This document shows positions 2 to 8,644 of a stretch of 23,664 bases of DNA, piece by piece. Source of the DNA: Streptomyces sp. NRRL F-2580 (lineage in GTDB: Bacteria; Actinomycetota; Actinomycetes; Streptomycetales; Streptomycetaceae); NCBI RefSeq assembly GCF_000720115.1, contig NZ_JOIR01000063.1, positions 1-23,664 of the forward strand, written 5' to 3'. How positions within the stretch are numbered: the stretch's first letter is position 1; the number at the start of each line of letters is the position of its first letter. Below the pieces are notes generated by a model that made no database searches, had not been told where the DNA came from, and saw nothing but the letters and a program-made list of their open reading frames with translations. Made by a program: the position numbers and the translations under genes.

Positions 2-112
2 GTGGACACCGCCTTCGAACCCTGGCGCGACCTGATCACCGACATCCGTACGCTGCGCCTGAGCGTGTACGACGTGGCCGACCGACTGCGCTCCATGCGA
101 CAGGAGTCCTGA
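2..112 (+). CDS. C-terminal 36 residues of an unidentified protein (5' end outside window)
   Basis: An open frame enters from the left edge and stops at TGA 110-112. The visible tail begins VDTAFEPWRDLITDIRTL and ends MRQES. It is charged and amphipathic, compatible with a C-terminal helix. Codon third positions are almost all G or C, as expected for a real gene here, and a strong hairpin follows 33 bases after the stop. It converges on the ectoine remnant. I do not recognise the family; with only 36 residues no function can be assigned. Confidence 0.6.
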   Translation: MDTAFEPWRDLITDIRTLRLSVYDVADRLRSMRQES

Positions 113-145
113 CCGGTCGGGAGACCTGCCGAGGCCGGGCACGGC

Positions 146-169
146 GGGGGGCCGGAGCACCGGCCCCCC
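146..169. terminator. GC-rich terminator hairpin after the partial gene
   Basis: GGGGGGCCGG (146-155) pairs perfectly with CCGGCCCCCC (160-169) around a 4-base loop. The flanks ACGGC (141-145) and GCCGT (171-175) extend the stem past one bulged C. It sits just after the stop at 112 and at the point where ectD homology ends (about 178), so it may also lie at one edge of the deletion that truncated ectD. Confidence 0.7.
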
Positions 170-177
170 CGCCGTAC

Positions 178-552
178 GTAGAAGCCGCTGGCGCCGAACC
201 CGGGCTTGACGTTGATCCGCGACTGGTGCACGTACACGTCGGAGCCCAGGATCTGCCGTGCGCGCCCCACGACGCGCGGCTCGGCGACGGGGGCCGCGAA
301 CACCTCGCTGATCCGGTGGACCTCGAAGACGGAGCGCACTTCGCGGGAGTTCGGCTCCACGATGGACCGCTCGTCGGCCAGCGTCGACGGGTCACGGAGC
401 AGCCGGTCCATCTCGTCCCGGTAGACGTCCACCTCGTCGGGCGTGACGAGTTCGTCCACGGACAGGAAGCCGTCGCGCTCGAAGCTCTCCAGCTCGTGGG
501 CCCACATCCGGCCCGGCGTGCCGAGCTCGGACCAGACGACGGGGTCCACGCG
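178..552 (-). pseudogene. ectD: ectD remnant: internal fragment of ectoine 5-hydroxylase
   Basis: EctD is an Fe(II)/2-oxoglutarate dioxygenase that makes 5-hydroxyectoine. Read on the - strand from 552 the peptide starts RVDPVVWSELGTPG, continues with ERDGFLSVDELVTPDEV and RSIVEPNSREVRSVFEVHR, and ends with the EctD signature HQSRINVKPGFGASGFY. In intact EctD that signature continues into the HSDFE segment with the iron-binding His and Asp; here the reading passes into unrelated sequence after position 178. About 125 codons survive of roughly 300. The N-terminal ~20 codons and the whole catalytic C-terminal half are missing, and there is no start codon in this frame. Upstream it is joined directly to the first codons of ectC. 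It cannot encode an active hydroxylase. Confidence 0.85.
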
Positions 553-556
553 GCAC

Positions 557-592
557 GGTTCCCTCGATGTCCCGGAACGAGCGGACGATCAT
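557..592 (-). pseudogene. ectC: ectC remnant: first 12 codons of ectoine synthase
   Basis: From ATG at 592 the - strand reads MIVRSFRDIEGT, the highly conserved start of EctC, the cyclase that closes the ectoine ring. A GAAGGG ribosome-binding site precedes it at normal spacing. After codon 12 the frame continues into non-EctC peptide, because the next bases belong to ectD in another frame. All the rest of ectC (about 120 codons) is deleted. The short frame can still be initiated and would give a 66-residue nonsense fusion ending at 392. Confidence 0.82.
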
Positions 593-662
593 GGTGGTGC
601 CCTTCGTGGTGCGTGCGTGGTGCGTGGTACGGGCTACGGGCTACGGGGTGACGGTCAGACGG

Positions 663-833
663 TCAGGCGGTCTCGCGGACGGAGCGGGCGAGGATGCCGA
701 GGCCCTCGTCGAGTTCGTCGCCGGTGACGGTGAGCGGCGGGAGCAGCTTCACGACCTCGCCCTCGGGGCCCGAGGTCTCGACGAGGGGACCGTGCCCGAA
801 GGCCCTCCGGCACACCTCCGCGGCGCGCTCCTT
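663..833 (-). pseudogene. ectB: ectB remnant: C-terminus of diaminobutyrate-2-oxoglutarate transaminase
   Basis: EctB is the PLP-dependent transaminase supplying L-2,4-diaminobutyrate for ectoine. The - strand peptide here includes GPLVETSGPEGEVVKLLPPL and TVTGDELDEGLGILARSVRE, ending at a TGA whose complement is 663-665. This matches the final 50 or so residues of EctB. Upstream of about 833 homology ends, and a different frame carries VAAQVLGELADDDADAR, which is not recognisable as EctB. The order ectB-ectC-ectD on the - strand and the ~70 base ectB-ectC gap match the actinobacterial ectABCD operon. No ectA is visible. Confidence 0.8.
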
Positions 834-894
834 CTGGCGTCGGCGTCGTCGTCCGCCAGTTCGCCGAGCACCTGCGCCGCCACCTGCTAGGCAT

Positions 895-1269
895 CCGCCC
901 AGGGTCCCGCAGGCGAGGCCGTCAGCCCGGGCCACGGAGCGCCGAAGGGAGCGACAACCTCTTCGAACGGATCTGGATCGCCGAGAGTTCGGCTACCTGG
1001 TCTCGACCAGGGCAGTGCTCGCTGACGCCCGCGATCTCCTCCTGGGCGTAGCTCTCCCAGCTCTCGCCCGGGATCTGGTCCACTGTGCGTTCGTGCACGC
1101 CCCCCCGATTTCCCCGTCTGTGAAATGAATCGCCGGGAGGCCAACAGCCGCCTCCGACACTGCAAGGGGTGCCGGGCCGCCGCGCGGGCTTGGTGGGTCG
1201 GCGGTGGGGCGGAGGCGGTGCGGCGGAAGGGCGGTTGACACGTCGAACGCGGCAGGTGAGAGTCCTTGC
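895..1269. other. Gap between ectB remnant and next gene; possible coding relic
   Basis: No convincing intact gene. On the - strand between about 1101 and 930 one frame reads VHERTVDQIPGESWESYAQE followed by EIAGVSEHCPGRDQVAELSA. This looks protein-like (balanced composition, unlike shadow frames) but I cannot assign a family. It may be the tail of another decayed gene, or the joint produced when the rest of the ect cluster was lost. The stretch 1105-1269 holds the leader of the next gene and nothing else I can name. Confidence 0.3.
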
Positions 1270-5330: not shown

Positions 5331-5993
5331 GTGCAGCAGAATCGAACCGATTGCGGTCAGATTACTTCCGAGGGGCCCGAGTTCCGGCTCCTTCACCTGA
5401 TACGGGCGGCCATGCTGAAACCCGTGTCGTTTTCCCCGGCGTACGCATCGGTGGACGAGTATCGGGTCCTGACGTCGACCATTCGGTCGAGGGTGGAAGA
5501 TGCTCAGGGCGCTTTCAGCAGGGCCGGGCGCGGGGAGGGGGGAGTGCTCCACCTCCCCGTGCGCATTCAGCTTCGAGGTTTGTTCATCGAGCTCTACGTC
5601 GAGCTCCGCCTGCAGAACGCGGGCCTTCGCATCGTCGGATTCCGCAACACCTTCGAGAACGGGCAGGCGCCACCGGAAGCGTACGTCCGCCATGTGCGGG
5701 ACTCGGTCGCGCCACCGGGAATCCGCCGGGCGCAGGCTCTGCCGTTCGGCGGAGGCCGTTCCGACCTGGAGTCGGCCGCCGACGTTCGGCGTTCGGGGAT
5801 CCTCCTGGGGCGCCGCCCCTTGGGTGACGCGGTGGTCTGGCTGCATCGGAACCGAGATCCGAAGCGCACCGCACACGGAATTCTCGTGCTCTCGGAAATG
5901 CTCTGCGAGGCTGCCCGATTCCCTGCCCTGACCGATGCGATGTCATGCGTCTGGATGACCGGTGGGCGGCTCTCAGCCGCGGCCGTCGTCTGA
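5331..5993 (+). CDS. Ribosome-inactivating protein (rRNA N-glycosylase) homologue, altered active site, C-terminus probably disrupted
   Basis: RIPs depurinate the sarcin-ricin loop of large-subunit rRNA. From GTG 5331 (220 residues) the protein has the RIP N-terminal strand-helix (PVSFSPAYASVDEYRVLTST), the strand pair LFIELYVELRLQN and LRIVGFRNTFENG, the loop LPFGGGRSDLESAADV, and the catalytic helix LSEMLCEAARFPAL, which fits the family pattern E-[AS]-x-R-[FY]. Glu193 and Arg196 align with the catalytic pair of ricin (E177, R180) and Shiga toxin (E167, R170). The two positions that stack the target adenine, Tyr in both toxins, appear as Arg100 and Arg143. Only about 24 residues follow the catalytic helix; in the next frame DDRWAALSRG resembles the conserved Trp-x-x-LS segment, suggesting a frameshift near 5935-5945. 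No signal peptide is visible. The start is uncertain: ATG 5412 is an alternative, and neither has a clear Shine-Dalgarno. Confidence 0.75.
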   Translation: MQQNRTDCGQITSEGPEFRLLHLIRAAMLKPVSFSPAYASVDEYRVLTSTIRSRVEDAQGAFSRAGRGEGGVLHLPVRIQLRGLFIELYVELRLQNAGLRIVGFRNTFENGQAPPEAYVRHVRDSVAPPGIRRAQALPFGGGRSDLESAADVRRSGILLGRRPLGDAVVWLHRNRDPKRTAHGILVLSEMLCEAARFPALTDAMSCVWMTGGRLSAAAVV

Positions 5994-6125
5994 AGTGCCT
6001 CACACAGGCACCATTCTGCGGGAGTTGGGGCGCCGAAGAAGGAGCGAGTCCCCTCAACAGGGGCTGGTCTCCACCCCGTACGACCTGCGATTCCCGCCCT
6101 GGGGATCCACGGAACAGGAGCGAAA

Positions 6126-6950
6126 GTGATAGTCAAGCGCACCGGTCGCCTCGTGGTTCTCGCCGCCGTACCCGCCGCCGTGTTCCTCACCCTCGGCCTT
6201 TCCGGACCAGCTCTCGCGGAGGGCGGAAAGGCGTACCAGATCGACCTGGCGCAGCTGAACGAATCGGGCTCCAGCGGTACGGTCATGCTCGGCCTCAAGG
6301 GAAACCAACTCACCGTGCAAATCGAGTCCAAGGGCATGGTGCCCGGACAGCCCTCGGCCCAGCATCTGCACGGATCGACGAAGGGCCACGACTTCCACTG
6401 CCCGGACGCCACCGACGACACCGACCGCGACGGGGTCCTCAGCAACACCGAGGCCACGCACGACTACGGCGACATCAACATCTCCCTCACCACGACCGGC
6501 GACACCAAGGCCACCAGCGGTCTCGCCGTGGACCGCATGCCCGTCGCCGACAAGCAGGGCAAGGTCTCCTACAAGCGGACGATCACCGTCGGCCAGGACG
6601 TGGTCGACCACATCAAGGACCTGCACGTCGTGCAGCACGGCATAGACCGCAACAAGAACAAGAAGTACGACTTCGAGGGGGCCGGCAAGAGCGAGCTCGA
6701 CCCCAAGCTCCCCCAGGAGGCCACGGCTCCGACCAACTGCGGGGAGGTCAAGGGCGCGGCCGTGGGGTCCATTCCGGTCGGCGGCATCGAGACCGGCGGA
6801 GGTTCCACGGAGCATGCGGCAGCGCCGGTGACGATGCGCGACGGTGGGGCGATCGCCGTACTCGCGGTGGTGGCCGGTGCGGTGGCGGTCGCAACGAGGC
6901 GGGCCGTGGCAGTCCCCGTCCGCAGGGAGACCACCGGGGGCGGCGCGTGA
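6126..6950 (+). CDS. Secreted CHRD-like surface protein with C-terminal anchor, candidate sortase substrate
   Basis: The 274-residue product starts at GTG 6126, 4 bases after AGGAGCGA-type ribosome-binding sequence. A classical signal peptide covers residues 1-31 (RLVVLAAVPAAVFLTLGL, cleavage after ALA). The exported body contains HLHGSTKGHDFHCPD, resembling His-rich segments of CHRD or Cu/Zn-SOD-like secreted proteins, and a DxDxDG-like acidic loop (DDTDRDGVLSN) that could bind Ca2+. Residues 216-228 (IPVGGIETGGGST), a hydrophobic helix at about 241-259 and a basic tail (VPVRRE) form the three-part layout of a cell-wall sorting signal, without LPxTG. Its TGA overlaps the GTG start of the sortase gene (GTGA), so the two are translationally coupled. 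The CHRD assignment is tentative; surface location is well supported. Confidence 0.82.
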   Translation: MIVKRTGRLVVLAAVPAAVFLTLGLSGPALAEGGKAYQIDLAQLNESGSSGTVMLGLKGNQLTVQIESKGMVPGQPSAQHLHGSTKGHDFHCPDATDDTDRDGVLSNTEATHDYGDINISLTTTGDTKATSGLAVDRMPVADKQGKVSYKRTITVGQDVVDHIKDLHVVQHGIDRNKNKKYDFEGAGKSELDPKLPQEATAPTNCGEVKGAAVGSIPVGGIETGGGSTEHAAAPVTMRDGGAIAVLAVVAGAVAVATRRAVAVPVRRETTGGGA

Positions 6951-7777
6951 AGCCGGCCCCCACGCCCTCCGGACCCGGACCTGCACCTGCACCCGGACCC
7001 GCGTCTACACCCCGGTCCCGGCCCCGACCCGGGCCCGCCCCCGTGTCTGCGCCCCGACCCGGACCCGCGCCCGCGGCCTCGGCCGCGCGGCTCCGACGCC
7101 GGACAGCAGGCCCCCTGGCGGCCGCCGCCCTCGCCGGGCTGCTCCTCGCGGGGTGCGCCGGCCAGGACACGGCGAAGCCGCCCGCCCCGGCGGGGCAGAC
7201 CCTCCAGGGCGGGGCGCCGGCCGCCGCGGCACCCGCGGACGGATCGCAGAGCGGCACGGGCGGTACGGGGGGTACGGGCGGAGCGGGTGGTACGGGCGGC
7301 GCGGTCGCGGCCGAGCCCGCCCTCGCCCGGTCGGAGCCGCAGAAGATCACGATCCCCTCCCTCGGCCTGTCCAGTTCCCTGGAGACCCTCCGGCAGAACG
7401 CGGACGGCACCATGCAGACCCCGAAGGACCCCGCGCTCGCGGGCTGGTACGAGCCGGGGCCGACCCCCGGTTCGCAGGGACCGGCCGTGATCGCCGGTCA
7501 CGTCACGTGGAACGGAGCAGCCGCAGTGTTCGAGAAGCTGAAGACGATGAAGGCCGGCGACACCATCAAGGTGGCCCGGCGGGATGGCAAGACCGTCACG
7601 TTCACCGTGGACCGGGTCGCCGAGTACCCGAAGGCCGAATTCCCCACGCTCGAGGTCTACAAGAACCTCGACCACGCGGGCCTTCGCTTGGTCACCTGCG
7701 GTGGGGACTTCGACCCCAAGAAGCACTACTACGACAGCAACGTGGTGGTGTTCGCCCGGATGACGGGCGCCGCGTAG
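6947..7777 (+). CDS. Class F sortase
   Basis: A transpeptidase that would cleave a sorting motif and attach the partner protein to the cell wall. The start GTG 6947 overlaps the previous stop; 276 residues. The N-terminus (residues 1-45) is an unusually long run of Pro-Ala-Gly-Arg, then RRRTAGPLAAAALAGLLLAG forms the membrane signal-anchor with a possible lipobox ending in Cys (LLAGCAG). A low-complexity GTGG linker follows at about 103-122, then the sortase fold from PQKITIPSLGLSSSLE. The catalytic triad is visible: His185 in VIAGHVTW, Cys251 in LVTCGG, Arg271 in VVVFAR. Length and sequence fit class F, the small actinobacterial class. A terminator follows 23 bases after the stop, so this closes a two-gene operon. 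Confidence 0.93.
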   Translation: MKPAPTPSGPGPAPAPGPASTPRSRPRPGPAPVSAPRPGPAPAASAARLRRRTAGPLAAAALAGLLLAGCAGQDTAKPPAPAGQTLQGGAPAAAAPADGSQSGTGGTGGTGGAGGTGGAVAAEPALARSEPQKITIPSLGLSSSLETLRQNADGTMQTPKDPALAGWYEPGPTPGSQGPAVIAGHVTWNGAAAVFEKLKTMKAGDTIKVARRDGKTVTFTVDRVAEYPKAEFPTLEVYKNLDHAGLRLVTCGGDFDPKKHYYDSNVVVFARMTGAA

Positions 7778-7800
7778 CCGGGCCGACGGGCCGGGAAGAC

Positions 7801-7837
7801 GTCCGTCAGCCGCAGGTCCCCACTGCGGCTGACGGAC
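7801..7837. terminator. Strong terminator after the sortase operon (probably bidirectional)
   Basis: GTCCGTCAGCCGCAG (7801-7815) is perfectly complementary to CTGCGGCTGACGGAC (7823-7837), with a 7-base loop. It lies between the convergent sortase gene (stop 7777) and MBL gene (stop 7850) and can serve both. Confidence 0.88.
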
Positions 7838-7849
7838 CCCGCCGCTCTG

Positions 7850-8644
7850 TCAGTCCCGGTTGCCCAGGTCCAGGCGGTCGGCCAGCCCGGCGGTGGTGAA
7901 GGCGGCGACCAACTGGTCGCGGCCCTCGGTGAAGTGGGCCCAGCTGTCGTAGTGGACGGGGACGACCCGGCGGGCGCCGAGGATCTCGGTGGCTTCGGCG
8001 GCCTGCGCACTGCTCAGGACGAGCGGTTCACCGTCGAAGAGGACCGGGAAGCGGGGAGCACCCGCGAAGAGTATGGCGGTGTCCACGGGGGCGAAGCGGG
8101 CGGCGATCTCCTTGACCGCGTCGAGCGAGGCGTTGTCGCCGCTGACGTAGACGGTGGGCAGTCCTTCACCGGTCAGGACGAATCCGACGACCTGGCCGGT
8201 GATCGGCTCGACCTCCTCGCGCGGCCCGGGGCCGTGGATGCCGGGCACGCCCGTGACGGTGACGGTGCCGCCGCCGGGGCGGTCCAACTCGACGGACTCC
8301 CAGTCGGCCAGCCCCTTGGCCCCGCCTCCCAGGCGCTCTCCGCCGCCGGGGGTGGTGAGGGTGAGCGGGACGTCGGCGAGCAGGGCCCGGCCGGAGGTGT
8401 CGAGGTTGTCGGCGTGCTCGTCGTGGGAGAGCAGCACCACGTCGACGGGGCCCAGGTCAGCGGGGGTGCCGGTGGCGGGTGCGGTCTTCACCAGAAGTGA
8501 GCCGCCGGGCACCTGGTAGTCGCCGGGGGCGTCGAAGGTCGGGTCGGTGAGGAACCGCAGTCCGCCGTACTCGAAAAGGGCGGTGGGGCCGCCGAAGACA
8601 CGGACGGGGAACTGCTCGAAGGCGGTGGTGCCGGTGGCAGACAT
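7850..8644 (-). CDS. MBL-fold metallo-hydrolase
   Basis: The start ATG at 8644 is supported by GAGG at 6-9 bases upstream and by the family N-terminus; an in-frame ATG at 8674 adds ten residues without a better site. 264 residues. An UlaG/RomA-like beta-lactamase fold is indicated by GGLRFLTDPTFD near residue 28 and the metal motif SHDEHADNLD (His74, His77, Asp79), followed by VPGIHGPGP, a Gly-Asp strand (VYVSGDNASLD) and a C-terminal VPVHYDSWAHF with a further metal-ligand His. Substrate unknown. It is divergent from the CGNR regulator at 8752 across a 107-base region full of CCGTGA half-sites, so it is the probable regulatory target of that protein. Confidence 0.88.
   Translation of the reverse strand: MSATGTTAFEQFPVRVFGGPTALFEYGGLRFLTDPTFDAPGDYQVPGGSLLVKTAPATGTPADLGPVDVVLLSHDEHADNLDTSGRALLADVPLTLTTPGGGERLGGGAKGLADWESVELDRPGGGTVTVTGVPGIHGPGPREEVEPITGQVVGFVLTGEGLPTVYVSGDNASLDAVKEIAARFAPVDTAILFAGAPRFPVLFDGEPLVLSSAQAAEATEILGARRVVPVHYDSWAHFTEGRDQLVAAFTTAGLADRLDLGNRD

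Follow-up and report, generated by a model that had tools for sequence, protein, structure and literature searches.

Most likely loss of ectoine and hydroxyectoine synthesis in a Streptomyces that retains a probable remnant of its native ectABCD operon

The window analysed here, the whole stretch of 23,664 bases, is the beginning of contig C63 of the Streptomyces genome G000, a draft assembly of 8.45 Mb in 156 contigs that is rated 100% complete. EctA, EctB, EctC and EctD as encoded by the intact operon in a near relative, G054 (reference coordinates in L063: ectB 5482-6744, ectC 6781-7185 and ectD 7262-8164; an ectABCD operon measures 3.6 kb), were used as tblastn queries against the whole window, and three gene pieces were found near its left end, all on the minus strand. 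The 3' end of ectB, its last 57 codons and the stop codon, lies at 663..836; EctB residues 364-420 match window 836-666 with 89.5% identity (E 2.5e-25) and the stop codon is at 665-663. It is followed by the ectB-ectC intergenic stretch (593..662, minus, by alignment to G054), in which the ectC leader is conserved and the remainder is longer than in G054, and by the ectC start codon and first 12 codons at 557..592 (EctC 1-12 to window 592-557, 12/12 residues identical, E 0.001). The longest piece, at 178..552, is an ectD fragment comprising codons 25-149 of 300 (EctD 25-149 to window 552-178, 89.6% identity, E 1.3e-71). In the case of EctA no match was found in the whole window (best E 0.32).

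Two of these pieces are also recognised by NCBIfam profiles, ectD by TIGR02408 ectoine hydroxylase (E 2.1e-48, profile positions 4-127 of 277) and ectB by TIGR02407 (E 1.4e-13, positions 357-411 of 412), with scores far below the curated whole-protein cut-offs, as expected of fragments. At the DNA level the match to G054, which contains all three gene pieces, covers window 178-837 in two parts that are 91% and 83% identical. The ectC piece, though short, is not taken as a chance match, because the 42 bases up to the ectC/ectD junction are identical to G054. Homologous pieces of ectB, ectC and ectD are thus present in operon order, beyond what chance would give, as a sequence-only reading of this DNA had proposed from signature peptides for the three genes, all of which were found in the window. 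The extent given there for the relic, 178..833, is nearly exact, with one end off by at most 4 bases. Its description of the copy as shredded is right in that the operon is broken; more exactly, the damage consists of truncations and a deletion, since neither an internal stop nor a frameshift was found by tblastn within the retained ectB and ectD stretches.

The internal deletion junction joins ectC codon 12 to ectD near codon 24 and lies at 553..559 (minus) by alignment to G054, the two aligned DNA pieces meeting at window 556-559. In G054 the bases ACCG occur both at ectC codons 12-13 and at ectD codons 23-24, and the relic reads as ectC through ACCG and then as ectD, with ~510 bp missing compared to G054; from this sequence, the deletion possibly arose by joining at the ACCG common to both sides. 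One extra base is present at the junction, and the ectC and ectD frames mismatch across it. At the left break (177/178) ectD ends directly after ...GFGASGFY, where the relatives go on with WHSDFETWHA, and at the right break (836/837) ectB is cut just before AAGGAGCGC. We infer at least three breaks in total: that at 836/837 would have removed ectA and most of ectB, the internal deletion would have taken most of ectC together with the ectD start, and that at 177/178 would have removed the second half of ectD. Deletion-type bacterial pseudogenes show truncations and a short sequence shared at the internal junction. The locus is like them in both respects and nothing distinctive was found; it represents a well-known operon reduced to a relic by deletion.

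According to excerpts of PMC3979721, the iron ligands of V. salexigens EctD are His146, Asp148 and His248, and its signature stretch of 17 residues runs from Phe143 to Pro159. Mapped by eye, the missing WHSDFETWHA holds residues matching two of the three ligands, and the ectD relic stops two residues into the signature stretch, so that the fragment has neither the HxD...H iron triad nor the complete signature. With the EctD iron site lost and almost the whole of EctB and EctC missing, no function is possible from the relic. Compared with a Streptomyces ectABCD operon, it agrees in gene order, in the ectC leader and start and in protein segments ~90% identical to those of G054, but ectA is absent, ectB, ectC and ectD are reduced to 57, 12 and 125 codons, and no catalytic site remains.

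Profile searches of the 156 draft contigs found no intact ectABCD in the rest of the genome. TIGR02408 (ectD) matches the G000 contigs at the relic only. TIGR02407 (ectB) gives 12 matches including the relic, none over the cut-off, the best of the others being on C8 (342.5 bits against a cut-off of 552.2, 41% identical to EctB), and TIGR02406 (ectA) gives two weak matches only (22.8 and 22.1 bits against 120.6). The EctC domain PF06339 is found in one gene, on C41 (129.5 bits), whose product is 36% identical to EctC and passes the NF009806 'ectoine synthase' model (139.5 against a cut-off of 128). Surrounded by BioF-like, FabF-like, adenylation, acyl-dehydrogenase and trp-like genes, it could make automated annotation report an ectoine synthase from another cluster. 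The C41 cluster (L002:15-10435, corresponding to G000:C41:36015-46435) also has trpD, trpA and trpC paralogues, and its dehydrogenase is nearest to PigA and prolyl-carrier dehydrogenase models, below their cut-offs. Solitary (orphan) ectC genes are described in excerpts of Czech et al. 2018 (PMC5924519), and in G000, too, an EctC-like gene stands alone, on a contig other than that of the relic; the case differs in that the relic in the window has lost ectC and that the lone protein is only 36% identical to EctC.

Because no ectA, ectB or ectD passes the profile cut-offs in the draft assembly, and given the low identity of the single EctC-like protein, the known route to ectoine should be closed to the strain. 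It is unlikely that a near-identical intact copy was collapsed into the relic during assembly, because the contig runs through all of the breaks. Judged from this draft genome, the living strain has most likely lost both ectoine and hydroxyectoine synthesis. Of the two alternatives offered by the sequence-only reading, the absence of ectA, ectB and ectD over cut-off elsewhere supports loss of the trait; as for a redundant second copy, no first copy was found in the draft genome alongside the relic.

How usual an ectD gene is in the genus was estimated from several searches. Full ectD (TIGR02408 over cut-off) is present in 53 of 60 same-genus relatives and in 54 of 100 genomes searched, G000 being among the 100 and the 54th lying outside the genus. 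In a larger sample of 391 other same-genus genomes, at least 361 show an ectD-like match, most of them not checked as intact: 313 by a DNA match of E 1e-60 or better to window 150-900 (314/392 including G000; among the matches listed, intactness unchecked), 42 by TIGR02408 over cut-off among 72 genomes searched, and 6 more from the profile search of the 60 relatives. Thirty same-genus genomes are without ectD over cut-off, G111 and G284 among these. Absence of ectD is uncommon yet recurrent among the sampled assemblies, and the earlier statement that ectoine genes are near-universal in Streptomyces is roughly correct, these 30 apart.

The companion statement, that these genes are chromosomal, is correct in part, as ect genes also occur on Streptomyces and Embleya plasmids. 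Eleven plasmid records match window 150-1260, none over 80% of the query; annotated ect genes are found on Streptomyces plasmids and whole-looking ectABCD on two Embleya megaplasmids. Three matching plasmid loci carry no annotated feature, namely the two Embleya ectABCD and a broken ectD (L211:3549-4685) on the 292-kb linear plasmid of Streptomyces sp. NBC_01001 (NZ_CP108713.1, L211). The latter is likewise broken and unannotated but lies on a plasmid and is broken differently, with residues 4-41, 113-262 and 249-299 in overlapping, shifted frames; it adjoins an EctC-like gene piece that is, by eye, nearer to the G000 C41 protein than to EctC. It is independent of the relic in the window. A search of genome contigs gave 80 loci at 70-77% identity (source genome possibly left out, intactness unchecked). 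No published ect relic in Streptomyces was noticed in the literature search, which is not proof of absence.

Several other assemblies drew attention during these comparisons. G111, at the ends of C1 and C3 (L206, L207), and G284, at the starts of C9 and C13 (L208, L209), show ectD tails exactly at contig ends; these comprise the last 34 and 23 codons, twice per genome, with a shared stretch of 105 or 78 bases. They are taken as possible assembly gaps and may represent duplicated operons lost in assembly. G385 has ectA-ectB-ectD without ectC on C56 (L078) and ectABC-ectD on C55 (L188), both stretches ending at the same ectD residue; its C56 locus, a 73% match from ectB to ectD, was considered as a second relic and rejected, because its ectB is complete and its ectD starts normally. 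Relics suspected from short matches in G035 and G046 were also rejected, given that tblastn found nothing in the former (L203) and that the latter (L204) is a 52%-identical EctB-like gene (residues 7-420).

The age of the relic was approached through ectD. The DNA of the ectD piece is 90-92% identical to the intact operons of eight near relatives, among the matches listed. In a tree of 92 ectD fragments (those matching a peptide pattern, the first of each identical set being retained), the relic falls inside the clade of these relatives with support 100/99; the clade holds seven distinct sequences of the eight genomes, G266 being identical to G238 there. The relic branch measures 0.045 compared to 0.018-0.066 for the relatives, and no faster drift is evident because it falls within their range. 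Private changes were counted over 369 bases of ectD in the relic and the seven distinct relatives (G266 omitted, identical to G238). The relic has six protein-changing changes and one silent, five of them at second codon positions in a sample of only seven, while the seven relatives pooled have 17 protein-changing and 30 silent. The difference (6/7 against 17/47, Fisher p 0.034) is based on only seven relic changes, and the intact-operon genome G248 is likewise skewed, with three protein-changing private changes and none silent. The skew weakly suggests, from this small sample of sequence differences, a resemblance to a young pseudogene. The relic may have evolved free of selection for a short time, and inactivation some time after the split from the near relatives would fit these few data.

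The DNA around the relic is a mosaic. Its left neighbour, outside the relic, is a short gene inside which the contig begins, so that only the 3' end is present (2..112, plus strand, 36 codons and stop), with a homologue in G042 (L062:5728-6108, 126 aa) that has no Pfam match and is preceded by a small ORF; by layout the two are possibly a toxin-antitoxin pair. Relatives of the 2..112 gene are found in several places per genome, namely C18 (58/58 bases) and C61 in G000 and at least three places in G054. Between its stop and the relic, a GC-rich hairpin at 141..175 (fold of 113-180, -46.6 kcal/mol, z -3.7) is possibly, judging by fold and position, the terminator of this gene; the terminator scan made no intrinsic-terminator call there. 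To the right, the sequence at 838..1203 is likely debris or non-coding: ORFs tried there, outside the ectB piece, gave no Pfam match, and 838-1203 has only short weak matches among the matches listed. For 838-1277 no relative was found at 1e-20 in nine relatives' genomes. The right-hand neighbour is a pentapeptide-repeat gene, relatives of which, 65-69% identical, occur in nine genomes, and farther to the right pieces of the window match several relatives in patches.

For the eight near relatives (L063, L177-L183), neighbourhoods were compared all-against-all in stretches of 15-20 kb that include the operon and about 4.6-10 kb on each side of it. Five different neighbourhoods were found, the common DNA being the operon itself: G317, G296 and G113 have flanking DNA in common, G238 and G266 have flanks alike that are in part shared with G041 and G039, and G248, G360 and G054 each stand alone. 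In none of the eight does window DNA lie beside the operon, only 177 window bases being left of the relic, so that an intact cluster at the same site, which the earlier reading had proposed to look for in relatives, was not seen in these eight. Directly next to the operon of G054 is a 5-kb block whose counterpart in G000, 90% identical and without ect genes, is on C48. Six of the other seven near relatives carry this block away from their ect operon (~43 kb from it on the same contig in G360), whereas G248 has no match to it; in the seven that have it, it is 87-90% identical to that of G000. On G000 C48 (L175), two neighbouring blocks stand in the opposite order to G054 (L063), where alone the ect operon is beside them. 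Because the block is mostly away from the operon in the other relatives, C48 may never have held ect genes, and we do not claim it as the emptied ancestral site.

The relic is very probably a non-functional remnant of the native ectABCD operon of a Streptomyces that lost ectoine and hydroxyectoine synthesis, even though none of the eight near relatives has its operon beside the window's DNA and an assembly gap in this 156-contig draft might conceal an intact operon. A different history would be that a second, redundant set of ect genes came in from outside, or from another place in the genome, and decayed here, the ancestral copy having been lost separately elsewhere. Five neighbourhoods among eight nearest relatives, the block on C48 that follows the operon in G054 and lies in G000 without ect, and the ect genes and an ectD relic on plasmids would all suit it; moreover, G039 is 89% identical to G000 in the C48 block and 78% in ectD, among the matches listed, and therefore ect and genome lineages need not match. 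Against this stand the lack of any other ect copy over cut-off in the draft genome, the grouping of the relic with relatives that resemble G000 to a similar degree in the C48 block (87-90%), and the position of that block away from the operon in six of seven other near relatives, G248 having none; we consider this history unlikely.

That the fragments are an assembly artefact near a contig end, the real genome having an intact operon, is highly improbable. The relic does begin at base 178 of the contig, whose first 58 bases recur at C18:111069-111126, and ectD tails stand exactly at contig ends in G111 and G284, but the ectC/ectD junction is inside the contig with ~4 shared bases, presumably too few to mislead an assembler, and the missing operon parts were not found elsewhere in the draft assembly. 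It is scarcely credible that the remaining frames are still used, for instance for a short EctD-like protein or a regulatory RNA. The ectD frame meets no stop over the 183 codons that lead to the contig start and a 66-codon frame begins at the ectC ATG; yet the iron-binding motif is absent, the open frame runs into unrelated DNA and protein-changing differences prevail, on few data. A promoter scan found none in the relic region, where none was expected either, which says nothing on use.

Set beside the native-remnant reading, a broader proposal is that ectABCD is a relocatable cassette in this subgroup and that the relic is the footprint of another of its sites, left when the cassette was lost. 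Homology among the eight relatives ends near the operon edges, and we put the proposal forward tentatively, with some doubt. If true, gain, relocation and loss of a stress trait typical of the genus would all take place within short times. The compounds with which Streptomyces protects itself against salt stress include ectoine and hydroxyectoine, and excerpts of a review (PMC10117811) state that S. coelicolor becomes salt-sensitive when ectA or ectC is disrupted. The case is one of ordinary gene loss, though well preserved, and a strain with an apparently recent loss of the pathway would be a natural knock-out in which to study the cost of ectoine and its replacement.
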